The position numbers and the translations under genes are program-made. Source: Acinetobacter sp. ANC 3781 (lineage in GTDB: Bacteria; Pseudomonadota; Gammaproteobacteria; Pseudomonadales; Moraxellaceae). Taken from it: a stretch of DNA of 64,000 nucleotides. Below, in pieces: positions 48,807 to 59,583 of the stretch. Under the pieces are notes generated by a model. It saw only the letters and a program-made list of their open reading frames with translations. It did not search any database and had not been told where the DNA came from. The stretch lies in the NCBI RefSeq assembly GCF_004331285.1, contig NZ_SJOH01000001.1, positions 1 through 64,000 on the forward strand, in the 5' to 3' direction. Position 1 is the first letter of the stretch. The number at the start of each line of letters is the position of its first letter.

Positions 48807-49157
48807 ATGTCGTCTCTAGGTTATTTGGAATTTGATGCAGCTGACAATCCCAGGTATTTAAAAAAAGTAGGCAATTGGGTGCTGACATTTTTAAATTCCA
48901 GAGATGAATTGATCAATATCCAACTTGCAATGACCAGTGTTCTTCCCCGCCAAGTGGGTGAAAACCTTCAGCCCCTTCGAATTATTATTGAGCAAACAGA
49001 AATTGAGAGTCGCTGGTTGATCCAGCAGATTGAATGTTATGACAGTACACAAGCTAAGGATGAAAAGTTTAGCTGTAATGATGAAATTGGAATTAAAGTC
49101 ATTCAAAGCATTATTCAAGAATTTAAAAAATATGATGTAGATATTGATTTGTTATAA
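48807..49157 (+). CDS. Unknown small protein (116 aa)
   Basis: This is an acidic, soluble-looking protein with no membrane segment: it starts SSLGYLEFDAADNPRYLKK and ends with a helix-rich IIQEFKKYDVDIDLL. AAGGGA 8 bases before ATG 48807 fixes the start. A terminator follows directly. No family recognised. Confidence 0.7.
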   Translation: MSSLGYLEFDAADNPRYLKKVGNWVLTFLNSRDELINIQLAMTSVLPRQVGENLQPLRIIIEQTEIESRWLIQQIECYDSTQAKDEKFSCNDEIGIKVIQSIIQEFKKYDVDIDLL

Positions 49158-49170
49158 GTTTTAGCCCTTG

Positions 49171-49193
49171 GCTCACTTCGGTGAGCTTTTTTT
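49171..49193 (+). terminator. Terminator after the 116-aa gene
   Basis: GCTCAC-TTCG-GTGAGC, a stem with a stable TTCG tetraloop, is followed by seven T's. Confidence 0.92.
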
Positions 49194-49334
49194 ATTTATT
49201 TCCTCAAGAAAGAATTACCTTTAGGTAAATATAAAGCAGATAAAATGGGGCTAATTTAAAAACCCACCCTGTTAATGAGTTCTTTGTATATCATGCTTTG
49301 ATTTGAATTCACCCAATCATTCACCATATTTGCG

Positions 49335-49556
49335 TCACTCGATAATCCGATAAATACTATCCGAATTACGACTTTCAAAGAGCAGCTCAATACTGGGACG
49401 TATAATTTCCCCCTCTATAATAATATGTTCAATTCTTTGAAATATTGAAAGCTTATTCAACTCAGTATTTTCAGGAAGATCCCGAAGTAATGCCTGCACT
49501 TCATGTATCTTACTAAACTGGTCTTTTACCTTTAGCTCAATCATTTGCGTCATCAA
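49335..49556 (-). CDS. Unknown small protein (73 aa)
   Basis: This small soluble protein is predicted helical (IELKVKDQFSKIHEVQALLR, then LSIFQRIEHIIIEGEI). No ribosome-binding site is obvious and an alternative ATG lies four codons in. It has no recognised family. The coding call rests on composition and clean length only. Confidence 0.5.
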   Translation of the reverse strand: MMTQMIELKVKDQFSKIHEVQALLRDLPENTELNKLSIFQRIEHIIIEGEIIRPSIELLFESRNSDSIYRIIE

Positions 49557-49768
49557 ATTTCTCTACTTATTTTATTTAACAGATCTTTTATAACATACCT
49601 TCTGCTATTAACATTCGTTAGAAATGTTAGATTTTTTGGCAATGTAATTTTTTATAAATAGATATTTGGAATTTATTTTAATTAATACAAACATATTAAT
49701 TAAACCTGTATTGCTGATGAGTTCATAGAGCAGTGTAGAGAGCTTTTCAAATCCAAGAAAATCAAAAT
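49557..49768. other. Spacer before the candidate small RNA
   Basis: AT-rich DNA with no frame separates the 73-aa gene from the end of the candidate RNA gene. It includes the presumed promoter of the 73-aa gene. Confidence 0.4.
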
Positions 49769-49904
49769 AAAAAAAGCCCACATTTCTGCGGGCTTTTATG
49801 TTGGAAGGCTAGTGCTGATTTCTTGTTTCAACCTAAGGTTGTAAACTCAACGAGCTGTCATTGATCCGTCCAACCTCTTTGTAGCGTCTTTAACGACCTA
49901 CTGT
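49769..49904 (-). ncRNA. Candidate small structured RNA (about 136 nt)
   Basis: Reading leftward, a near-consensus promoter ends at 49911 and an intrinsic terminator ends at 49769, with no frame between. The transcript would begin with a hairpin (GTAG-GTC ... GAC-G-CTAC, loop GTTAAA). A longer pairing of GTTGGA with TCCAAC encloses an inner CAACC-TTA-GGTTG hairpin, and the transcript finishes in GCCCGCA-GAAA-TGTGGGC plus seven T's. Acinetobacter genomes are reported to carry repeated small RNAs related to phage C4 antisense RNA; this could be such a member, but I cannot confirm that by eye. It lies next to the prophage relic. Confidence 0.6.
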
Positions 49905-49910
49905 AGAGTT

Positions 49911-49939
49911 AATATATTCCTGTAAGTTTTATCTAACAA
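49911..49939 (-). promoter_or_regulatory. Promoter of the candidate small RNA
   Basis: On the minus strand TTGTTA (49939-49934) and TATATT (49916-49911) are separated by exactly 17 bases. A start about 7 bases downstream (near 49904) fits the first RNA hairpin. Confidence 0.6.
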
Positions 49940-50179
49940 GACACGATTACATTTACAGGACAATTGTGCAAAAAAAATACTATTGATGATTATAAAATTT
50001 AGTAAATTATTAGCTAGCTTCCAACAAAGATCATTACTCATTTAAATCGAGTAAAATGCCTTAGGGTTTTTAATGAGTCTGACTCACTATTATTTCAATT
50101 AATTTTAAGTGACTTATATCGATCTCTTGGCAATAAAAAATTAAGTTTATTTATTAAAAATTATTTTTCTAGTTGTGGT
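49940..50179. other. Non-coding spacer
   Basis: About 240 AT-rich bases between the RNA promoter and the serine acetyltransferase relic. A short palindrome GAGTCTGACTC lies near 50077. Nothing else is seen. Confidence 0.35.
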
Positions 50180-50615
50180 TTCAATTTTATTTTCTGGCTG
50201 TGTTTATCCCATTCAAAATCGGTTATCCAATTTTCTATTATAAAAAGAAGAATACCGTATCGACATTCACTGCATCATTCAAATAGGGTATGGACTTCCT
50301 ATACACTCGCGGTGGTCCTGGTGATCATTCTGACTACCATTACTGATAACAACGTCAATCTTTCCACAATACAGGATCATTGGAGTAAATGACGGCGGTC
50401 AAGCAGCTATCCTTGATGACACTATTTATATTGAACCCAATATCTGTGTAATTGACAATATGCCTATTATTGGAAACCATACCACCCTTGGCGCAGGCAA
50501 TATGGTGATAAAAGATATTCCTGAAAATGCAACTGCAGTCGGTAACTATGCCAGAGTTATTAATTATAACCATGCTGGCAAATCAGTGAGCAGCCATTTG
50601 CCTGTAAAATTCTGA
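50180..50615 (+). pseudogene. Decayed serine O-acetyltransferase-like gene
   Basis: The last 125 codons or so still read as a left-handed beta-helix acetyltransferase: GVNDGGQAAILDDTIYIEPN, then ICVIDNMPIIGNHTTLGAG, then KDIPENATAVGNYARVI and a stop at 50613-50615. Upstream, pieces in other frames (IGYGLPIHSR, DNNVNLSTIQ) match the preceding part of the same fold. The start and catalytic region are lost or shifted. Relatives make O-acetylserine for cysteine or acetylate capsule sugars. Confidence 0.65.
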
Positions 50616-50620
50616 GCAAT

Positions 50621-50642
50621 AAAAAAGAAGGCTTTTGCCCTC
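50621..50642 (-). terminator. Terminator after the Rz-like gene
   Basis: On the minus strand GAGGGC-AAAA-GCCTTC (one G-T pair) is followed by TTTTTT, 12 bases past the Rz-like stop. Confidence 0.65.
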
Positions 50643-50653
50643 TTGTTCAATCT

Positions 50654-50863
50654 TTACATGATGGTGGCTTTTTCTGTTTGAGCCTGATCAATCGTATCTT
50701 CATAAGGTTTGATGGCTTTGGCCACACGTGAATCGCATGCAGCTTCAGCATCCTGAAGCTTTCCGCTTAAGTGGTTTGTATAAACTAACTGTCCAAGACA
50801 GATAAAAGAAAGGACCTCAATTGCGATCCAGTATTTGAATTTCCAAACTATTGTCCATATCAT
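50654..50863 (-). CDS. Rz-like inner-membrane spanin (prophage lysis)
   Basis: This 69-residue protein starts with one hydrophobic helix (FKYWIAIEVLSFICLGQLVY) and continues as a charged helix (GKLQDAEAACDSRVAKAIK), the layout of a short i-spanin that helps disrupt the outer membrane in lysis. AGAGG lies 9 bases before ATG 50863. It directly follows the endolysin relic, with whose original stop codon its start overlaps (ATGA). Shorter than most Rz proteins, so possibly truncated. It is an orphan without its phage. Confidence 0.55.
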   Translation of the reverse strand: MIWTIVWKFKYWIAIEVLSFICLGQLVYTNHLSGKLQDAEAACDSRVAKAIKPYEDTIDQAQTEKATIM

Positions 50864-50907
50864 CTGAGGGATACCTCTTTTTCTTTTGCGCAACAATCAA
50901 CTAAGCC

Positions 50908-51230
50908 TTACAAAATTTTACCACCACCTTTATTCCAAACAGTGAATTGCTCTGCAGCACCTTGATAATCGCCCGCATTCAATTTTTTAAGCAGTGTTGA
51001 TTTTTCAAAAGTAGCTGTGCCAATGTTGTATGTGAGCGATACAAGTGAATCAAACTGGTTTTGTGTAAGTGGCACTTTAACTAAATCATTAACTGTTTTT
51101 TCAAAGCGTTTTAGATCATGCGCTTTAAATTGTTTAGCTTGCTGCAGTGTACAGGTATCGCCTTACCGCTAAGTTCAGACATCAAACCTGAGTCAATAAT
51201 GAAGTTTGGTTTCTTTGTATATCCACCCAT
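50908..51230 (-). pseudogene. Fusion relic: start of phage replication-O-like gene joined to endolysin
   Basis: From ATG 51230 (AGAGG upstream) the frame reads MGGYTKKPNFIIDSGLMSEL, like the beginning of phage replication protein O. In another frame, from about 51160, it continues as a GH24 lysozyme-type endolysin: LQQAKQFKAHDLKRFEKTVN, then LTQNQFDSLVSLTYNIG and WNKGGGKIL. The endolysin then meets TAA at 50908-50910, but the same frame continues GLVDCCAKEKEVSLR to a TGA at 50860-50862. The relic thus records a large deletion, a frame break and a nonsense mutation. Confidence 0.7.
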
Positions 51231-51390
51231 AAAAACCTCTGAATCCCCAAAAAAAGCTTTGATAAACCTTAAAAATTTGTTGAACTTACTGCTATGTTCA
51301 TTTTCTTTTCGCTGTTGAATTTGAATTAAAAAGCCTGATCTCAGAAATTAGACTTTTTCTCGTTGTATAGCTGACAAATACTTTGCACAC

Positions 51391-51837
51391 TTATTTCATG
51401 GCTTTACGCAAAGACTGGATTTTGTGTTCAATCTCTTCCAGGATGCGATCCGTCTCATCCATTTCTGAAGGTGTCATCACACCATCTTCCAAAGCAGATA
51501 AAACCTGCTTATTTGCTGAACCGTTCCCGACATTTATTCCTAATAGCGATTCAAGAACACCCAGTTGATGATTTTTGCCTTCCGCCTGATCTACTGGAAC
51601 CAGCATGAAATCCAATTTATGCGCCCACACTTTTAAAGAAATGGGGTTTTGGGTGTAACTCAACATTGCTTCAAATGCTTTTAGACTCGGCAAACGGTTT
51701 TCCATATTTGGATTGGCATAATTCAAAATCGTGTTATGAGATACGCCTATCACATCAGCAATTTCTTTCGGAGTAATAACGTTAGATTGATACACCATCT
51801 TGTGTAAAGCAATTTTAGTTTCTTTCGATATATTCAT
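51391..51837 (-). CDS. Phage CII-like regulatory protein
   Basis: The 148-residue protein has an N-terminal helix-turn-helix (TPKEIADVIGVSHNTILNYA, about residues 22-41) and a long helical C-terminal part with ETDRILEEIEHKIQSLRKAM. It resembles the phage CII/CP76 group. It lies 18 bases after the frame-corrected end of the Cro-like gene and in the same direction, as cII follows cro in lambda. In lambda CII activates repressor synthesis; the same role is inferred here from position. Confidence 0.65.
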   Translation of the reverse strand: MNISKETKIALHKMVYQSNVITPKEIADVIGVSHNTILNYANPNMENRLPSLKAFEAMLSYTQNPISLKVWAHKLDFMLVPVDQAEGKNHQLGVLESLLGINVGNGSANKQVLSALEDGVMTPSEMDETDRILEEIEHKIQSLRKAMK

Positions 51838-51855
51838 GTGAATCCTTGAATTTTT

Positions 51856-52070
51856 TCACGTTTCCTTGAAACGATAATCTGGTGATAATTGGTTTAAGCG
51901 GTTAAGGTTTCCAAATTTGCCTTTACTCTGGATCTGAAGGATTGCTTGAGTTGATGCTAGAATTTCATAAGAGCGCCATTTACTAATTGCTCCACGTGTT
52001 TTTTTAAAACTCGCGCTAGATTCGCATCACTCTCTGCTCCGTAATGGTCCTTAACCTCATCTACGGTCAT
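51856..52070 (-). pseudogene. Cro/YdaS-like repressor gene with a frameshift at an A7 run
   Basis: From ATG 52070 (AAGGTG 6 bases upstream) the frame reads MTVDEVKDHYGAESDANLAR then VLKK and then drifts to a stop at 51957. If the reading slips back one base at the run of seven A (51999-52005), it continues TRGAISKWRSYEILASTQAI then LQIQSKGKFGNLN and stops at 51856-51858. The result is a normal 71-residue Cro/YdaS-type helix-turn-helix protein. The heptamer A-AAA-AAA is in the right phase for a -1 slip, so the gene may be broken, a sequencing artefact, or expressed by slippage. Confidence 0.65.
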
Positions 52071-52094
52071 ATCGTTCACCTTAATAAATCAAAA

Positions 52095-52155
52095 GTTTCT
52101 CCAAGTAAACAATAAGTTTCTTTTTGGGTCGATAATCTTGTTTACTATTGGAAAC
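52095..52155. promoter_or_regulatory. Operator cluster between cro-like and cI-like genes (OR-like)
   Basis: Two 16-base sites share the pattern GTTT(C/A)(T/C)-N4-(G)(T/G)AAAC: GTTTCT-CCAA-GTAAAC at 52095-52110 and GTTTAC-TATT-GGAAAC at 52140-52155. A half-site GTTTCTTTTT lies between at 52116. They sit in the divergent promoter region of the two phage repressors, where lambda has OR1-3. The same pattern recurs at 57.1 kb. Confidence 0.65.
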
Positions 52156-52162
52156 AAAAGTT

Positions 52163-52906
52163 ATGGGTATTTATGCAATGAGCAGCGTTTCTGAACGTAT
52201 CTTGATGAGAATGAAGGAACTTAACCTTCAGCAAGTTGATTTGATTGGAGCTACTGGCCTTAGCAAAGGCACGGTCTCTAAATGGATCTCGGGTATGAAT
52301 ACGCCGAGCGGTAAGAATATTACCTCTCTTGCAAGAGCCTTAAAAACATCACCTGAATGGATTTTAGATGGAGTATCAGCTTCCGAAAAAAGCAATGCAG
52401 ATATAGCTAAGATGGAAGTTGGCATATATCAGGATGGAGACCCGATTCCAGATGGGTATATTGCTATTGATTATTATGATGATGTATTTGTTAGTGCAGG
52501 AAATGGTTACTTGAATCTAGAAAAACCAAGTGATAATAAAATGTTATTTCCTGTTGACCTGATTAAAGAGTGTAATGTCGAATCCTCTACAACCAAAGTA
52601 ATTCACGTTCGTGGCGAAAGCATGTTTCCTAAATTGAAGGATGGACAAGCCATATCAATTGATATGTCTGCCAGAACTATTTATGACGGTGAAATTTATG
52701 CTTTTCAGGTTGGAGATGACACCAAAATTAAATATCTATTCAATTGGAATGAGCAAGGCAAAGGTGGGTTTAAGGCTGTCTCAGCAAATTCTGATAAAAA
52801 TCAATTCCCCGATGAGTACTACTCTCCCCATCGCATTGAATCGGAAGGTCTATCTATATTGGGTCAATATTGGTGGAAACAGGTTGTAAAGCGAATTCGA
52901 CGCTAA
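52163..52906 (+). CDS. CI-like prophage repressor (HTH plus S24 LexA-type peptidase)
   Basis: The N-terminal HTH (LQQVDLIGATGLSKGTVSKW, about residue 20-40 from ATG 52178) binds DNA. The C-terminal S24 domain has the catalytic Ser in VRGESMFPKLKDG and the Lys in DDTKIKYLF; an Ala-Gly pair (VSAGNG) is a plausible self-cleavage site. It should maintain lysogeny and be cleaved in the SOS response. Start choice: ATG 52163 (GGAAAC upstream), ATG 52178 (MSSVSERIL, the usual family start) or a TTG at 52148 inside the operator; I give the first ATG. It appears intact although the phage around it is not. Confidence 0.85.
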   Translation: MGIYAMSSVSERILMRMKELNLQQVDLIGATGLSKGTVSKWISGMNTPSGKNITSLARALKTSPEWILDGVSASEKSNADIAKMEVGIYQDGDPIPDGYIAIDYYDDVFVSAGNGYLNLEKPSDNKMLFPVDLIKECNVESSTTKVIHVRGESMFPKLKDGQAISIDMSARTIYDGEIYAFQVGDDTKIKYLFNWNEQGKGGFKAVSANSDKNQFPDEYYSPHRIESEGLSILGQYWWKQVVKRIRR

Positions 52907-53046
52907 TAAAAACTGATACCCATACACTTAAACCGAAACGGCTTTGATCGACTGCTGGCTAGTTGGAAAAGTTGTTGGCTTGTATAGAAAATTTTAATAA
53001 ACAAAAAGCCGCTATATTCGGCCTATTCACGTAATGAGAATGATTA

Positions 53047-53373
53047 ATGAGTAAAGAATATAATTCCCTTGAGATAAGTAAATACAGCGAGCTAAGCAGT
53101 GATGAGCAAAATGCTATTCATAAAATGCTTATCTCTTATGTACGTACAAATGATTTCTACAATATTGTCCTACTCCATGATAGTGATCCTTACGACTTGG
53201 TCAAACTTGTAAGTATTAGCTTCGAGAATCAAGATGCTGCAATCTGGGTTCACTTTGAGACTATTACTGCTGAGAGACTGACCATGCCTCTCGATTTTAT
53301 TTCAAGAATAGAATTATGTAATGAGAAAGAACTTTCAAATGCTACGAACCTGAGGCGATTTGAGTTTTTTTAG
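53047..53373 (+). CDS. Unknown prophage accessory protein (108 aa)
   Basis: This small acidic soluble protein includes VSISFENQDAAIWVHFETIT and ends RRFEFF. No signal peptide, membrane segment or known motif is seen. It lies 140 bases after the cI-like gene in the same direction, in the interval between the two operator clusters where lambda carries rex. Function unknown; exclusion or host-modifying roles are possible by position only. Confidence 0.65.
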   Translation: MSKEYNSLEISKYSELSSDEQNAIHKMLISYVRTNDFYNIVLLHDSDPYDLVKLVSISFENQDAAIWVHFETITAERLTMPLDFISRIELCNEKELSNATNLRRFEFF

Positions 53374-53471
53374 GTTGTCTCTGGATGTTTGAAAAGCGAG
53401 TCACCGGTGAGTTGGGGTGCTGACTTTTAAAATAATAAAAGCCGCAATCCTAGCCAAAACTTTTAGCGCGG

Positions 53472-53609
53472 ATGGAGGAAAATGTTCATCTACTTAGCAA
53501 AGAGATCTTATCCAAATCTAATATTAAAATTTATGCTTTTCATTCTGAAGATGGAGGTGCATCAAGAATATTTGAAATATTAAAGGTAGGTCAGTATTCC
53601 GTTTTTTAA
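53472..53609 (+). CDS. Possible 45-aa peptide or gene remnant
   Basis: An open frame from ATG 53472 reads MEENVHLLSKEILSKSNIKI and ends GQYSVF just before a terminator. It has the look of a protein end and no good ribosome-binding site; an overlapping frame from ATG 53482 has GGAGG in front but is only 33 codons. I cannot tell a real small gene from a relic. Confidence 0.25.
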   Translation: MEENVHLLSKEILSKSNIKIYAFHSEDGGASRIFEILKVGQYSVF

Positions 53610-53612
53610 ATC

Positions 53613-53640
53613 AACCCATCACTGTGATGGGTTTTCTTTT
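53613..53640 (+). terminator. Terminator (first of four similar ones)
   Basis: AACCCATCAC and its near-complement TGTGATGGGTT form the stem, followed by TTCTTTT. The motif TGATGGGTTTTCTTTT recurs at 54.85 and 57.08 kb, with a related one at 55.46 kb. Confidence 0.8.
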
Positions 53641-53688
53641 CTCAACTTTCCCTTATAATTCATTCACCCATAACTAGAAAAATCAATT

Positions 53689-54033
53689 ATGAAAACTAAA
53701 ATATTTATAACTACTCTTTTCCTTATCTCTCTTACTGGCTGTGAAAAATCCAAGCCGACAACATCCGAGCCATCGAGTGATACCACTATCACAGCTCAAT
53801 TTGAGCAATCAAATGATAAAATCCATCAATTTATAGACCAACTCGACGATCCAGATACTCCGCAAGATGTTCGTATTCAGATTCTATATAAAGACTACTC
53901 TACTGAATACAAAACCAATTACCTGCCATCACTAATGAAGCTATCACCAGGTGAATACACGGAAGGTAAATTGATAAATGATTTAGACATAGCATTAGGT
54001 TATTACAAGAAAAAAGACAATATTCAATGTTAA
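53689..54033 (+). CDS. Small prophage lipoprotein, copy A (114 aa)
   Basis: A lipoprotein signal peptide (MKTKIFITTLFLISLTGC, Cys at 18) is followed by a Ser/Thr-rich linker and a helical domain with TEYKTNYLPSLMKLSPGEY and DLDIALGYYKKKDNIQC at the very end. A TATAAT box at 53654-53659 and leader TAACTAGAAAAAT precede it. It is paralogous to the lipoprotein at 55.1 kb in its C-terminal half, and the leaders also match. Free-standing promoter and terminator mark it as an independent unit (a moron). Surface lipoproteins in this position sometimes block superinfection, but that is only a hypothesis here. Confidence 0.75.
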   Translation: MKTKIFITTLFLISLTGCEKSKPTTSEPSSDTTITAQFEQSNDKIHQFIDQLDDPDTPQDVRIQILYKDYSTEYKTNYLPSLMKLSPGEYTEGKLINDLDIALGYYKKKDNIQC

Positions 54034-54840
54034 AATTGAACTATATTTCTATAATCAATATTGATGAAGTACTGAATGCTCAAGACCGAATTTTTAGTGG
54101 GCTTTCTATATGTAACTATATTAATTCTAAAAGACTTAAAAGATAACTTCTCAAAAAACAGATCAATTAATAAATAGAAAATGAAAACTCGAAGAGGGAA
54201 TAATTTTTCGATTATGACAAAAGAAAACTGCACTTAAAATTAAGCATAAAAGTGCACTTACTGTAAGCTGAAATGGTCTCATTTTCTTTATTATAAAGTT
54301 AAAAAAGTACCAGTAAAGCTACATCAAAATCTCAAAAAATCAATTGCTTATTTTTTATTTTATGTGATTAGTTTAGTATTTTTAAGTAAATAAAAAACAT
54401 TTATTAAAAAATTAAACTAACATATATTACCAGTTTCTTATGGAATTCACTTCTCGGCAAACCTCTGTTTGATTGCGAAAATTGAGCGAATGAGGATATG
54501 GTAGATCCTTTTTAAGCAGGTCTTTGAAGGTATATGTTTTTTCTCTTCTATAGCCTCTATGCTTGAGGTTCGACCATTACGTTAATATCTGATTTATTAC
54601 ATCCCGCCATTCTCACTATCATAGATAGTACTATTTTCTTTTTATTGAATACCCCTTGACCACAAGAAACCTTACACTAATTTTTAATATAGGAACTTTT
54701 TCAATACTGTTTTTTAATGTTATTTTTACATTAATTATTCAACTTTTTTAGTAATATCATCGAAAGAAATTCATTACTATTTCATAATCCAAATCCCTTA
54801 TCGATACGAGGTTTTTTTACCAAAAAATCACTCTTATTTC

Positions 54841-54868
54841 ACCCCCCTTCTGATGGGTTTTCTTTTTT
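54841..54868 (+). terminator. Imperfect terminator (orphan)
   Basis: ACCC and GGGT pair weakly, followed by TTTCTTTTTT. It matches the TGATGGGTTTTCTTTT motif of the neighbouring terminators but no gene precedes it. Confidence 0.4.
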
Positions 54869-55067
54869 CTGTTAAAAATAAAGATATATTTCATATATAC
54901 CTTTAGATTATACTGATTGAGTACTCAACTATCTAATTACATTATGATATTTAATCTTTTCTTACTTATAGTGAATATTCTCGCCATAGTGGGAATAGTT
55001 TTATTTTTTAATAAAAAATAAAAAACTTAAACACAGCTTAAAAGTGGGTTTTTTATTGATTTAAGTT

Positions 55068-55102
55068 TATAATTCAAGCTCTAATAACTAAAAAATATAG
55101 TC
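55068..55102 (+). promoter_or_regulatory. Promoter and leader shared with lipoprotein copy A
   Basis: TATAATTCA at 55068 followed by TAACTAAAAAAT before ATG 55103 mirrors TATAATTCA at 53654 followed by TAACTAGAAAAAT before ATG 53689. The matching -10 and leader support a common origin of the two units. Confidence 0.55.
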
Positions 55103-55438
55103 ATGAAGAAGGCAGTACTTACTACCCTACTCTTAGTGTTGAATTTAACTGCTTGCGAAGAACACAAGTTAGACTCGATTGATTCGCCCTTACATTCTAC
55201 TTCGTTTGATAGACCAGAAAGTCTTTTCAGCGTGTATATAGAAAAATTAGACTCTGAGTTTAACCACCCAAAGGTTCAATATCGTAATCTATGTAGCGGT
55301 TATTCTTATGATTATAAAACTAATTATTTACCCAATTTACTCAAGTTTGCTTCTAATAATTATGATGAGTTAGGCCTTATAGCTGACTTAAATATAGTTT
55401 TGGAAAATTACAAAAGCACAGGGATAACTCGCTGTTAA
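55103..55438 (+). CDS. Small prophage lipoprotein, copy B (111 aa)
   Basis: The lipoprotein signal is MKKAVLTTLLLVLNLTAC (Cys at 18). The C-terminal half aligns with copy A: YDYKTNYLPNLLKFASNNY, DLNIVLENYKSTGITRC, both ending in a Cys. The middle region has diverged fully and this copy has an extra Cys (NLCSGYSY). Two paralogues held in one relic suggest selection for what they do or a recombination-driven pair. Function unknown. Confidence 0.75.
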   Translation: MKKAVLTTLLLVLNLTACEEHKLDSIDSPLHSTSFDRPESLFSVYIEKLDSEFNHPKVQYRNLCSGYSYDYKTNYLPNLLKFASNNYDELGLIADLNIVLENYKSTGITRC

Positions 55439-55456
55439 CATCTTAAGAATTTTATA

Positions 55457-55484
55457 AAACCCACCATTGAGTGGGTTTTCTTTT
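55457..55484 (+). terminator. Terminator of lipoprotein copy B
   Basis: AAAACCCAC and GTGGGTTTT pair around CATTGA, followed by CTTTT. Confidence 0.85.
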
Positions 55485-55665
55485 GTCTCATCAAATAATG
55501 AACAGTCCCGCTTTTATTAGTGGAATATTCAGTAATTTCAGGTAGAGTAAATTCAACGTTTAAAGCTTTTTTAAAGACCACTTACCTTCATATTGTCTTA
55601 TAAGACCGTAATTTAGATTTTGGAATACAGACACCTAACCTGAATGCATAAAAGATAGGCCTATA

Positions 55666-56613
55666 ATGAATAATATTAACTTTAAGAATTTTGAAGAAGC
55701 AGGACAAGCTATTTTAAAATTCTTGTCTCAACGCTTTGGATTTAAGTTATGGATGATTACTCGTACAGAGGGTGATGATTGGATCGTACTACTAAGTGAA
55801 GATAATGGTTATAACATTAAGCCAGGACAAGTATTTCATTGGGCAGACTCATTTTGCTCACACATGGTACAAAATAACGCGCCTCGTATTGTTCCCTACT
55901 CGCCTGATATTCAAGTCTATACGGACGCACCAATAAATAAGCTTGTTACTATTAAAGCATATATTGGCCAGCCCCTTTTTAAAGAAGATGGATCCCTTTT
56001 CGGCACTCTCTGTGCAATTGATCCTGAACCTCAGTCTAAAATTCTTCTTGAAGATGCTCCATTATTCGAGCTAATAGCAAAAGTACTTAGTTATACTATT
56101 CAAGCTGAATTAAAAACAGCTGAATACATACGTAAAGCCGAACGTTTTGAAGTGGAAGCGTTATCCGACCCAATGACTGGGCTTTTTAACCGTCGTGCTT
56201 GGGATCAGTTAATTCATTTAGAAGAAGAACGCTGCAAACGCTATGGCCATCCTACTGCTGTAATAATGATAGATCTTAATGGCCTAAAGGTCACAAATGA
56301 TACCTTAGGTCATGCTGCAGGAGATGAGCTAATCCGAAGGATGGCTTTAACTCTAAAAGACATTGTACGTAGTAATGATATTGTCGCTCGCTTAGGTGGT
56401 GACGAATTTGCTGTACTAAGTATAGAAACTAATTTGGAAAGTGCCGAGAAACTTGTTATTAGAATTCAGGATGCATTTTCACATGCCAATATTAGTGCCG
56501 CAATTGGGCTTGCAATGCGAAATCCGACATATGGGCTTTCTGCAGCGATAGAGGCAGCTGATATAAAAATGTATAAAAATAAAGCTTTAATTAAATCTAA
56601 ATATATTAACTAA
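55666..56613 (+). CDS. GAF-GGDEF diguanylate cyclase
   Basis: This 315-residue cytosolic protein has an N-terminal GAF sensor domain (about residues 10-150, with WADSFCSHMV and LFGTLCAIDP typical of GAF-GGDEF proteins) and a C-terminal GGDEF domain (about 160-310: DPMTGLFNRRAWD, MIDLNGLKVTND, RLGGDEFAVL). The active site GGDEF (244-248) is intact, and an I-site RxxD (RSND, 235-238) lies exactly five residues before it, so product inhibition is expected. It should make cyclic di-GMP in response to an unknown GAF ligand. Its place between the prophage operators makes it a likely lysogenic-conversion gene. Confidence 0.88.
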   Translation: MNNINFKNFEEAGQAILKFLSQRFGFKLWMITRTEGDDWIVLLSEDNGYNIKPGQVFHWADSFCSHMVQNNAPRIVPYSPDIQVYTDAPINKLVTIKAYIGQPLFKEDGSLFGTLCAIDPEPQSKILLEDAPLFELIAKVLSYTIQAELKTAEYIRKAERFEVEALSDPMTGLFNRRAWDQLIHLEEERCKRYGHPTAVIMIDLNGLKVTNDTLGHAAGDELIRRMALTLKDIVRSNDIVARLGGDEFAVLSIETNLESAEKLVIRIQDAFSHANISAAIGLAMRNPTYGLSAAIEAADIKMYKNKALIKSKYIN

Positions 56614-56661
56614 TAGAAAGCTGCGAACCCGAGCGGCTATTGGATCGGCTGGAGAAAATAA

Positions 56662-56967
56662 GTGGATATGATTTGTGTTAGATCTAGCTCAATAAATGCT
56701 GTGGGATACAATCCAGATACCAATCATCTGTATATTAAGTTTAATAATAATCCCAAAACCTACACTTTTTATAATCTTCCCTTTCAGATCTACAATGAAC
56801 TAAGGGCGGCGGCATCTAAAGGTCGTTATTATCATAGAAACATCGAGGGCCGCTACAAAGGTTGTTATTTAGCAATTTCGCTATTTTATCAATCTGCTGT
56901 ATTTGTTGATTATGATCAATGCGCCAATATATTTCGTCTTCATTGGCATCTACACTATCGGTGGTAA
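56662..56967 (+). CDS. KTSC-domain protein
   Basis: The first 65 residues match the KTSC domain (VRSSSINAVGYNPDTNHLYI, then YTFYNLPFQIYNELRAA and NIEGRYKG), a small domain named after a lysyl-tRNA-synthetase-associated region and common in phages. The start is taken at GTG 56662, with GGAG 7 bases upstream; ATG 56668 is the alternative. After GRYKG the frame runs 35 more residues without family resemblance, overlapping a minus-strand lipoprotein-like frame, so the C-terminus may be altered. Function unknown. Confidence 0.7.
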   Translation: MDMICVRSSSINAVGYNPDTNHLYIKFNNNPKTYTFYNLPFQIYNELRAAASKGRYYHRNIEGRYKGCYLAISLFYQSAVFVDYDQCANIFRLHWHLHYRW

Positions 56968-57070
56968 TGGTATCGTTGCAAGCGCTTAAGATCAGCTGAA
57001 CACTAACCAAAATTTTTCGGATATTTGCTAATTCTGATTCAATTAGAACCATCTCAAAGATTCCAATCAA
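56816..57070 (-). CDS. Possible lipoprotein-like frame overlapping the KTSC gene
   Basis: This leftward frame contains IRKILVSVQLILSAC, which looks like a lipoprotein signal ending in a lipobox Cys, followed by an acidic mature part (NDTITTDSVDANEDEIYWRI). The true start is unclear: no ribosome-binding site precedes the ATG at 57070, and a TTG inside ILVSV is also possible. Its end overlaps the KTSC gene by 150 bases. It may be a third, degraded member of the lipoprotein cassettes in reverse orientation. Confidence 0.35.
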   Translation of the reverse strand: MIGIFEMVLIESELANIRKILVSVQLILSACNDTITTDSVDANEDEIYWRIDHNQQIQQIDKIAKLLNNNLCSGPRCFYDNNDL

Positions 57071-57096
57071 CCCACCCCTGTGATGGGTTTTCTTTT
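57069..57096 (+). terminator. Terminator closing the accessory cassette
   Basis: AACCCA ... TGGGTT with CCCCTGTGA between, then TTCTTTT. It matches the terminator at 53613 in sequence and stands just before the second operator cluster. Confidence 0.65.
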
Positions 57097-57113
57097 GTTT
57101 ATTAAAATATTAA

Positions 57114-57183
57114 GTTTCTATAAGGAATAATAGGTTTCTTTTAACAAACTTTATTCTTGATTAAAAAGTTTCTTTTTATAAAC
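57114..57183 (+). promoter_or_regulatory. Operator cluster upstream of early-left operon (OL-like)
   Basis: Two complete 16-base sites, GTTTCT-TTTA-ACAAAC at 57134-57149 and GTTTCT-TTTT-ATAAAC at 57168-57183, plus an imperfect third at 57114-57129. They share arms and spacing with the sites at 52.1 kb. A TTGATT at 57157 with TAAACT 16 bases later overlaps the last site, so repressor binding would occlude this rightward promoter. Confidence 0.65.
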
Positions 57184-57265
57184 TAAATCTCATAAACAAA
57201 GAAAAGCACAACGTAGTTTGAGCTACTTGGAGCCAGACCCACGCCTTCGAGTGAGTGAAATAATT

Positions 57266-57490
57266 ATGAGTACACATCCTTCCCACAGTCAAACACCAAG
57301 TTTTAGCACTAACAAAAGTCAAACGCCTGTGATTCTTCACTGCGAACCGACATACAAAGAAATACATCCTAAACCTTCAAGTATGTTCGCAAATATCAGC
57401 GCGTTTCTATTAATCGCAATTACGTTTTTGGCTTTGTCTTACATGTATCTGCCTAGTTTTAAAAAAGAAGTTCAATTTCAAGAAGAATAA
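57266..57490 (+). CDS. Small prophage membrane protein (74 aa)
   Basis: A Ser/Pro/His-rich N-terminal half (MSTHPSHSQTPSFSTN) is followed by one membrane helix (MFANISAFLLIAITFLALSY) and a short charged end. It is the first gene after the OL-like operators and so would be the first early-left product. ATG 57266 is chosen over an upstream frame extension that runs into the promoter. No family recognised. Confidence 0.55.
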   Translation: MSTHPSHSQTPSFSTNKSQTPVILHCEPTYKEIHPKPSSMFANISAFLLIAITFLALSYMYLPSFKKEVQFQEE

Positions 57491-57539
57491 TCCATTGCTC
57501 GTCAAAATCAAAATGCCGGAGTGAATCGCTAATGGCTCC

Positions 57540-57740
57540 TCTTTTGCCTGCTGCATTTTTAATGAAAACCACGGTTCGGCTTATTACAAAGCACTGGCTT
57601 GATTTGAAAAGCCACTGCTAAAAGAAATACTCATTCAGTGCCATGGCAATCAAACCAAAGCTGCTGAAATTGTGGGTCTTAACCGGGGAAACTTCCGAGA
57701 AACGATTATTCAACACAAACTTCATAAAGAAGTTAATTAA
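57540..57740 (+). pseudogene. Fis-type HTH gene interrupted by a stop
   Basis: The frame reads NENHGSAYYKALA, then TGA at 57600-57602, then FEKPLLKEILIQCHGNQTKA followed by AEIVGLNRGNFRETI and TAA at 57738-57740. The second part is a Fis-like helix-turn-helix. The upstream piece is in the same frame and protein-like, so one nonsense change separates them. No clear start codon was found. Confidence 0.6.
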
Positions 57741-57754
57741 ACCGGTGGTTGGTA

Positions 57755-58063
57755 ATGGATCTACAAATTAAATACCTGTTAACCGAGCCAGAAGGCACCA
57801 AACATATTCACTTCCAACTTGTTGGGCCATTTGAAACTTGAATTTTAAACGGCGGTTACCAGGCTAAATTTATTAAACATTCAGCATGCGTTCGTTACAG
57901 CATGGCAAATAAAGAAACGCTTGAAATTGATGGCACTGGAAAGATAAATGCTGCAGCACAGAAACGCTATGCGATTTTTCTTCAGCGGTATTTGAAAGTG
58001 GGTAAATTGTTAATTACTTCTTTACGGGCTCAAACGCCAAAAACTTTAAGGGTGGCAGCGTGA
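57755..58063 (+). pseudogene. Unknown prophage gene with a single in-frame TGA
   Basis: From ATG 57755 the frame encodes 102 residues broken only by TGA at 57839-57841 (HFQLVGPFET-stop-ILNGGYQAKFI). The remainder continues cleanly to TGA 58061-58063, which overlaps the start of the next gene. A single change, probably from TGG, would account for it. No family recognised. Confidence 0.6.
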
Positions 58064-58368
58064 TGGATATTCAAAGAGAAATGTTTGAAGCATTGGACCA
58101 TATCAAGCGACTACTGGACTATTCTAAATTTAATGAAAAAATGAATAGCTATGAATTAGTCAGGGATGAAAATTACGCTATTCGAGATACGTGTGAACTA
58201 AATACAGCATCCAAAGCCCAAGCGGTTCCAGAAGGATTTATGGCACTTGCGGTCGATGATGTAGAAAGATTTCTTAGATGTCTCGATGACCACGCCATCT
58301 ATATCACACACAAAGCTAGTGATGCTTTAGAAAATATTAGAAAAGCCATGATCGAAGCACAGGAGTAA
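58063..58368 (+). CDS. Unknown prophage protein (101 aa)
   Basis: This soluble, helical, acidic protein (MDIQREMFEALDHIKRLLDY at the start, DDVERFLRCLDDHAIYI near residue 75) has the look of small early-operon phage proteins. The ATG at 58063 overlaps the stop of the preceding relic (TGATG). No known function. Confidence 0.6.
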   Translation: MDIQREMFEALDHIKRLLDYSKFNEKMNSYELVRDENYAIRDTCELNTASKAQAVPEGFMALAVDDVERFLRCLDDHAIYITHKASDALENIRKAMIEAQE

Positions 58369-58403
58369 AAGGGATGATATTGATGAAAAACAGGAGCCAA
58401 CCA

Positions 58404-58607
58404 ATGACTGAAAAACTAGAACAAGCACAAGACCTCATTGAATCGTTAGCAGCTCGAAAAATTGGTGGTACTGGCTATTTGATGAATAGTGAAGAAGCTG
58501 AATTGGCGTATGAAGTTTTTAACGATTATGTGGAAAGGAATGAGTTGAAAGGCGTTGATGTGAAGTTGCCTTTTGATGTGAGTTTTGGGAGCAGAGTTAT
58601 GATTTAA
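58404..58607 (+). CDS. Unknown prophage protein (67 aa)
   Basis: This small acidic protein begins MTEKLEQAQDLIESLAARKI. GGAG lies 7 bases before ATG 58404, which is preferred over ATG 58374. It lies 35 bases after the previous gene in the same operon. Function unknown. Confidence 0.6.
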   Translation: MTEKLEQAQDLIESLAARKIGGTGYLMNSEEAELAYEVFNDYVERNELKGVDVKLPFDVSFGSRVMI

Positions 58608-58994
58608 AAAACTAAACAATTAATACCAGCTGAAATAGTTCGTGATGATTATGGCTTCTGGGTTCATCCTGTGCTTAGCCAGTATTTAGATGACTTGTTA
58701 GACGATCATGAAGGAATGACGGAATCCGAACATCAAAAAATGATGCGCGATTTAGGTGTAACCTTTTACCAGGTAGAAATGGAATGGGATTGCTCTGAAG
58801 AAATACAGGAAAAATATTGGGGTATCGGTGACATTGAAGCCACCAGGGATTGGAATCCAAGTAAGCCAAAATTAACAGGTGATTGGTTTTTAGTTTCAAT
58901 TAATGACACAGAGGATGGTCCAGTATCTTGGTGGACTAAACCTAAAAATGATTTACCTGAATCTGTGAAACAAAGTTTGCGGGAGGTTAGTTGA
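58608..58994 (+). CDS. Unknown prophage protein, start codon apparently lost
   Basis: The plus strand is open from 58608, reading KTKQLIPAEIVRDDYGFWVH then PVLSQYLDDLLDDHEGM and ending SLREVS. The first possible start is GTG 58671, but the 21 codons before it read as protein and follow the previous stop directly, so the original start was probably altered. The C-terminal part is Trp-rich (DWNPSKPKLTGDWFLVS), as in many Acinetobacter phage early proteins. It may still be made from GTG 58671. Confidence 0.5.
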   Translation, partial: KTKQLIPAEIVRDDYGFWVHPVLSQYLDDLLDDHEGMTESEHQKMMRDLGVTFYQVEMEWDCSEEIQEKYWGIGDIEATRDWNPSKPKLTGDWFLVSINDTEDGPVSWWTKPKNDLPESVKQSLREVS

Positions 58995-59221
58995 TGACAG
59001 CATGGCGAACATGGGCAACTTTATTGTTGCCCCTGCCACCTTCAGACATTTAGTTGACAGATGATCAGGCGGCAGAATTTTTAAGTGATGAGAAGGGATA
59101 CATCAAAGCATCTATTATTTGCTTAAAGGGATTTCCAAAACCAAAGCACATTACCGAGACTGTAAAAGGTCGAAGATGGAACTTGAAAAAAGTATCTGAC
59201 TGGTTAAATGAAAGCCCATAA
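58994..59221 (+). pseudogene. Excisionase-like (AlpA/HTH_17) gene with in-frame TAG
   Basis: ATG 58994 overlaps the previous stop (ATGA). The 75-codon frame carries TAG at 59051-59053 (PPSDI-stop-LTDDQAAEF) and then reads a small winged DNA-binding protein: GFPKPKHITETVKGRRWNLK, KVSDWLNESP. This is the layout of Xis/AlpA proteins. A TTG right after the TAG could allow a shortened product. Its place, last before the tRNA, is where excisionase and integrase are expected; the integrase is absent. Confidence 0.6.
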
Positions 59222-59244
59222 GATTTGAAAAAAGCAGTAGGCAG

Positions 59245-59270
59245 ACCCCGCAAAATATAGCGGGTTTTTT
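59245..59270 (+). terminator. Terminator of the early-left operon
   Basis: ACCCCGC and GCGGGTT pair around AAAATATA, followed by T's. Confidence 0.75.
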
Positions 59271-59330
59271 CTTGATTAAAATATGGATTACGCCAAAGTT
59301 ATTATAAGCTATTGATTTTATAGGTATTAT

Positions 59331-59406
59331 TGGTGCGCTCAGCGGGACTCGAACCCACGCCACAGGCTTCGGAGACCTGTACTCTATCCAGTTGAGCTAT
59401 GAGCGC
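59331..59406 (-). tRNA. tRNA-Arg (anticodon CCG)
   Basis: The minus strand folds as a complete 76-base tRNA with acceptor GCGCTCA / TGAGCGC, D arm AGCTCAACTGGATAGAGT, anticodon stem CAGGT-CTCCGAA-GCCTG with anticodon CCG, T arm GGGTTCGAGTCCC, and encoded CCA. It reads CGG codons. It marks the right edge of the prophage relic and is the likely attachment site, although I saw no second copy of its 3' end in the window. Confidence 0.95.
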
Positions 59407-59583
59407 GCGTGCACATCATAACAAAAAAAACCATAAGGTAAAGCAACTATATATAAGTCTTTATTTTAGTGCTCAGACTTTAAACAATGTTCCATAATTG
59501 CAACAGAGAATTCCTCCTTATTTACTTGGTTTATTAGCAAAGATCACTCACAATACTCACACTATTCACCATGTGAGAAATTC

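Follow-up and report, generated by a model that had tools for sequence, protein, structure and literature searches.

A CI-like repressor gene and two distant clusters of one operator pattern in a decayed Acinetobacter prophage

Can a decayed prophage keep the parts of a lambda-like switch, in which one repressor serves two operator clusters lying kilobases apart? The question is raised by a stretch of 64,000 nucleotides from Acinetobacter sp. ANC 3781 (contig NZ_SJOH01000001.1, positions 1 to 64,000), here called the window. A prophage relic in this chromosome still has a gene for a CI-like repressor, cI, and two far-apart operator clusters, named right and left operator (OR and OL) after those of phage lambda. 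An earlier note on this DNA had proposed that the one repressor controls both clusters on the lambda plan. Layout, domain swaps, co-variation of operator classes and recognition-helix tests back this proposal at the level of sequence, and we hold it very probable that CI controls both OR and OL in this phage group.

Operator sites and their layout

Each cluster has two full sites of 16 bp, and all four are present as the earlier note described them. They are given here with their surroundings, including the likely boxes of the right and left early promoters (PR and PL).

52074-52089: third OR site, decayed; matrix rank 11, two arm bases differing from 32/32 relatives
52095-52110: full OR site, GTTTCTCCAAGTAAAC, overlapping the likely PR -10 box (52104-52109, minus strand)
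52116-52121: GTTTCT half-site within the PR spacer; its GTTT is the same in all 32 relatives, matrix rank only 821
52127-52132, minus strand: likely PR -35 box, TCGACC in the window and mostly TTGAnn in relatives
52140-52155: full OR site adjoining cI, GTTTACTATTGGAAAC, a pattern match
52163-52906, plus strand: cI-like repressor gene (HTH_3 and Peptidase S24), with an alternative ATG at 52178
52262-52285, plus strand: predicted recognition helix of CI, SKGTVSKW
57114-57129: third OL site, degenerate (GTTTCTATAAGGAATA); matrix rank 33
57134-57149: OL site 1, full, GTTTCTTTTAACAAAC, a pattern match; the pair is conserved in relatives
57168-57183: OL site 2, full, GTTTCTTTTTATAAAC, between the likely PL -35 (57157-57162) and -10 (57179-57184) boxes

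The loose pattern GTTTNYNNNNRNAAAC had five matches in the window against 0.86 expected, and at least five were reached in 0 of 100 shuffles. The fifth match (301-316) is single, AT-rich and likely due to chance. Pairs of GTTTN8AAAC 5-35 bp apart occurred twice in the 3.39-Mb genome and not at all in the control, and the window holds such a pair at each cluster. For a matrix scan we built a symmetric matrix on relatives alone (20 unique sites, window excluded). The four sites took ranks 1-4 of the window; at the lowest of their scores, 30 Markov-simulated windows gave a mean of 0.2 and a maximum of 2.

CI relatives came from three genome loci, all Acinetobacter, and from 37 loci on viral contigs. 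Offsets below have base 52166 (second codon of cI) as their reference point. Relatives with a similar N-terminal domain (NTD) had their sites ordered and spaced as in the window, at -92, -71 and -26 and, beyond cI, as two sites 34 bp apart. Exceptions were L007 and L008, without an exact -92 site, and L015/L016, without an exact -71 site and with the pair 35 bp apart. The Acinetobacter genome locus L044 agrees with L002, from A. venetianus, in the start of CI and in the sites. OR in the relatives consists of three full sites and a half-site, and OL of two full sites and a degenerate one; the window has two full sites per cluster, so lambda's three OR and three OL sites are not matched. The putative promoters of the relatives read TTGACC-N17-TTTACT (PR) and TTGACT-N16-TAAACT (PL), in which the -71 site would overlie the PR -10 box and OL site 2 would occupy the PL spacer.

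Among representatives of the operator classes A, C and D (defined below), the third site lies 45 bp past the second, and GTCAA of the likely PR -35 box 12 bp before the third. The corresponding distances in the class B representative are 49 and 8 bp, and the second site of L015 deviates from the motif by one base. By these distances the layout persists while the operator letters change between classes.

Repressor domain swaps and operator classes

Natural exchanges of CI domains bear on shared control. The 12 loci L030-L041 have an NTD identical to that of the window at 62-66 of 75 positions and a C-terminal domain (CTD) that looks unrelated, with only 37-38 of 144 identical, and they keep the operators. 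L009-L012 have a CTD identical at 159-164 of 171 positions and an NTD at 36-40 in 69-73, and the window-type operators are absent. The palindromes fall into classes: GTTTN8AAAC (A, that of the window), GTAAN6TTAC (B), GTTCAN6TGAAC (C), RTTCN8GAAY (D, its motif adjusted after inspection) and ATAACN4GTTAT (E). Each class, D with its refined motif, carries its own palindrome at both OR and OL. An exact own-class OL pair was found in 14/22 sequences of class A, 4/5 of B, 2/2 of C, 5/5 of E and, with the refined motif, 2/2 of D. Six class motifs compared across 41 sequences gave no wrong-class OL pair.

A two-block exchange is seen in L012 (class D). It matches the window in the CTD (91%), the 108-amino-acid (aa) gene next to cI (91%), a lipoprotein-like gene (81%) and a diguanylate cyclase (82%), and also on either side of OL (57062-57131 and 57257-57328). 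It is unmatched at OR plus NTD (51908-52333) and at OL (57132-57256). L032, of class A with another CTD, has the same cyclase and an OL matching the window. Together the two patterns mean that, with the cargo the same, OL goes with the NTD. Comparison establishes the sites, their conserved layout and the fact that the palindrome at OR and OL changes with the DNA-binding domain. This co-variation strongly supports the view that one repressor specificity serves both clusters. A possible finer contact code was seen in L015, L057, L061 and L064-L066, where the helix SKGTVTNW goes with GTTTAG-type sites and SKG[TA]VSKW with GTTTAC/GTTTCC.

The link between helix and operator was also seen in two other sets. 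The genus set comprised 24 CI loci, some of them phages of the first set, with the window's own left out. Class A sites preceded cI in 12/24, and all 12 encoded KG[TA][VI][ST]xW; the other 12 had neither sites nor helix (Fisher 7e-7, kinship ignored). Bare DNA patterns were scanned over a viral collection of 2.9 million contigs. The OL pattern was found in 61 stretches, on 60 contigs, and the OR pattern at 52 loci, on 52 contigs; 27 contigs had both. KG[TA][VI]SKW was encoded at most 330 bases downstream in 51 of the 52 OR loci, the last contig stopping 68 bases downstream; of 20,000 windows drawn at random from these loci, 302 had it. Helix and OR pair lay upstream of 45 OL stretches, the helix only of two, and neither of 14.

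Among named phages, Acba_14 had no class A site in a stretch that covers only 39 bases before cI, Ab105-1phi had one single class A site and no pair, and Escherichia phage 813R8 had three sites, two of them by cI, but no OL module. Groups with a short cI (216-224 aa; helix SKG[TA]VSQW or SKG[TS]ISLW) also had GTTTN8AAAC operators, with OL only 64-83 bp past cI (L101, L107-L109, L112-L114, L116, L117, L126, L132-L134, L151 and L156).

From this arrangement we infer that a CI dimer would bind the 16-bp palindrome GTTTN8AAAC through its N-terminal helix-turn-helix (HTH) domain, possibly cooperatively. At OR it would cover the PR -10 box and the site adjoining its own gene, and at OL, 5 kb away, it would sit between the PL -35 and -10 boxes, so that a single protein would keep both early operons shut. 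Self-cleavage of its S24 domain, driven by RecA, would end this repression. The available text of PMC8053113 gives an OL-OR distance of 2.3 kb for lambda and a 20-kb loop forming in vivo at ~16% efficiency; the 5 kb spacing is within the range documented there for lambda CI, and the two clusters may be joined by looping.

State and gene content of the relic

The cI frame is open and, judged from the translation, keeps the Ala-Gly / Ser / Lys set of self-cleavage residues along with HTH_3 and S24, in keeping with the earlier description of the gene as intact. The divergent pair of cI and cro with operators between them is present. Left of cI lie the cro-like and then the CII-like gene; to the right follow 4 kb of cargo, OL and remnants of the rightward operon, up to the 3' end of a tRNA gene.

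51391-51837, minus strand: CII-like gene (family match to Phage_CP76)
51860-52070 (left end approximate), minus strand: cro-like gene, frameshifted in a T-run near 51999-52005
52907-57060, plus strand: cargo with a 108-aa gene, two lipoprotein-like genes, a GAF-GGDEF diguanylate cyclase and a KTSC protein (open frames, family matches)
57266-57490, plus strand: first open frame of the rightward operon past OL, its start region DNA common to L010 and L012
59331-59406, minus strand: tRNA-Arg(ccg), its 3' end being the right end of the relic

The 20 open reading frames (ORFs) scanned in and beside the relic had no match to head, tail or integrase families, and none of nine genome-wide Phage_integrase matches fell within the window, which bears out the reported loss of these genes. 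One of the 20 matched an endolysin family; a lipoprotein-like ORF in the cargo hit a PHROG that carries the label recombination directionality factor. No second copy of the tRNA-Arg end turned up in the window, and megablast of positions 49000-59500 gave no match in the phage collection.

The suggestion that the switch may still work does not survive as a two-way switch. The earlier note had missed the decayed third OR site, the half-site-like copies at 52116 and 57114, the cro frameshift and the change in the PR -35 box. cro was intact, with 62 aa, in 5/5 relatives looked at. Against 32 unique OR sequences the window differs at three invariant positions, two in the arms of the -92 site and one, base 52131, in the -35 box, where it has GTCGA instead of GTCAA. 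The change at 52131 occurs in 0/32 relatives; 3/32 also differ from TCAA in this box, at another base. Counting OR positions conserved in at least 90%, the window differs at 6/56 and the relatives at 0-4, with 22/32 at none. PL keeps TTGATT and TAAACT. With a frameshifted cro, an altered PR -35 box and a decayed OR site there is no working two-way switch, and at most the repressor and OL are left. By these sequence features the lytic arm looks gone, and the repressor and OL may be alive.

Variable cargo fills the zone from cI to OL (52907-57133), with a length of 0.15-5.8 kb in 26 sequences. Ten cargo proteins were scanned, from the window and from L005, L008, L009, L017, L018, L024 and L041, and several resemble defence genes: Beta protein/PD-Lambda-2_C, AAA_15/AAA_21 ATPase, DUF2326/PDC-M68B, DndB/DpdB-like, IrrE-type peptidase and HATPase_c_3 proteins. 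The GAF-GGDEF diguanylate cyclase (55666-56613) also travels as phage cargo, shared at 82% with L012 and L032, and PHROG 14602 matches it over nearly its full length. Four similar terminator-like repeats stand between the cargo genes (53609, 54835, 55453 and 57065), the last directly preceding OL.

Rival readings and known immunity regions

Several observations weigh against joint control of the clusters by CI. Single loose sites are at chance genome-wide (31 places, 30 for a backward control) and are not taken as evidence; the possibility of random recurrence, raised in the earlier note, was real for them and did not extend to close pairs in this genome. Paired sites occur in 65/175 genomes of the genus, and many of the listed pairs resemble conserved coding sequence, so operators were not counted from them. 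An exact OL pair is missing from 8/22 class A sequences, three of which (L002, L013 and L014) are one phage with near-matches, and the other five end 0.9-4.1 kb past the cI start. Single wrong-class OR matches stand in six loci (L009-L012, with the similar motifs C/D, and L015/L016). No OL pair was found in class F (4 loci), and in the single locus of class G (L025) OL is present and OR lies off the contig. The sets overlap and are redundant, the 21 class A loci having 8 different NTDs and the 19 others 11. Ten of the 14 viral OL stretches with neither helix nor OR pair have <2.1 kb upstream; the rest have 4.6 kb (L127), 9.2 kb (L154), 2.6 kb (L159) and just 2.08 kb (L155), with L154 and L155 looking like chance.

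Different proteins might bind the two clusters, OL being served by Cro, say, or by some other early regulator; the palindrome would then be shared by coincidence or through common descent, with no joint control. In AT-rich DNA single sites are frequent, and the binding of CI to the clusters is predicted from comparing sequences. Cro is expected to use the same sites as CI, as in lambda, and a share of Cro in the co-variation of the palindrome is possible. Still, the palindrome changes at both loci with the CI NTD in four to five classes, and L012 has its OL replaced between matching flanks, which makes separate proteins very improbable. As for host regulators, the available text of PMC11332147 places UmuDAb, the LexA substitute of Acinetobacter, in the same S24 group and describes the genus as lacking LexA, so the sites could be its SOS boxes. 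The operator given there has a GTAAC core with TGAA/TCAA arms, and GTAAC, GTTAC and TGAA are all absent from 52030-52180 and 57090-57230. With the required letters absent at both clusters, and a GTAAC scan without above-chance signal, we rejected this candidate and give it practically no credence.

Joint control by CI could also be real in living relatives and extinct in the relic, its CI no longer made or active and its sites dead DNA. We see a substantial chance of this, somewhat short of even, given the damage to cro, the PR -35 box and the -92 site and the excess of changes at conserved OR positions. On the other side, cI is open with its helix and cleavage residues, the four full sites keep all arm bases and the PL boxes are recognisable. 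The ratio of nonsynonymous to synonymous substitution rates in cI against four relatives is 0.05-0.11; it mostly reflects phage history, is not separable from relic history and does not decide relic activity. On balance we lean towards a relic CI that still binds and gives some homoimmunity: the remaining repressor and OL could repress incoming phages of the same operator class, and immunity of the host through the relic is plausible.

The relic resembles lambda in its divergent cI and cro with operators between them, CII after cro, a second cluster beyond the immunity region and ahead of the opposite early operon, and a repressor made of an HTH part and a predicted self-cleaving CTD. Unlike lambda it has 16-bp GTTTN8AAAC sites, an OL 5 kb off behind variable cargo and a broken cro. 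The only solved relatives found by sequence search at E <= 0.001 were structures of the P22 C2 repressor NTD (1adr, 2r1j and 3jxb; E 2.5e-7 to 4.3e-7); the match is limited to the HTH part, and the recognition-helix letters differ. HK022, whose OL and OR are ~700 bp apart according to the same partial text (PMC8053113), shares the arrangement. The complete A. baumannii phage BUCTT20 (OR188767) has the same order of HTH protein, cro and cI; two OR sites fit class A exactly, and an OL module lies 0.8 kb past the cI start. Its CI holds KKGTVSKW (100% match to a 90-aa query). Compared with the window it has an integrase and a full gene set, and its CI is 36% identical over residues 2-192.

Among the titles and abstract openings covered, none announced a map of CI operators or prophage repressors in Acinetobacter, or of this palindrome; a literature search for modular repressor exchange found no paper, one for cryptic prophages with functional repressors yielded reviews, and the part of an Acinetobacter temperate-phage paper available to us only cites the lambda model (PMC7354433). 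The relic region is of the lambdoid immunity-region kind, known since lambda; the set of natural two-block swaps and the idea of relic immunity are the directly testable part. A tentative and rather doubtful extension is that in this phage group immunity specificity is swapped through two blocks together, the CI DNA-binding domain with OR and the distant OL, with CTD and cargo unchanged, and that relics are kept because their repressor immunizes against a common operator class. The natural domain swaps of CI allow homoimmune Acinetobacter phages to be predicted from the recognition helix, a short stretch, and the palindrome belonging to it. Should the relic CI be functional, Acinetobacter may owe some of its phage resistance to prophage remnants that look dead.

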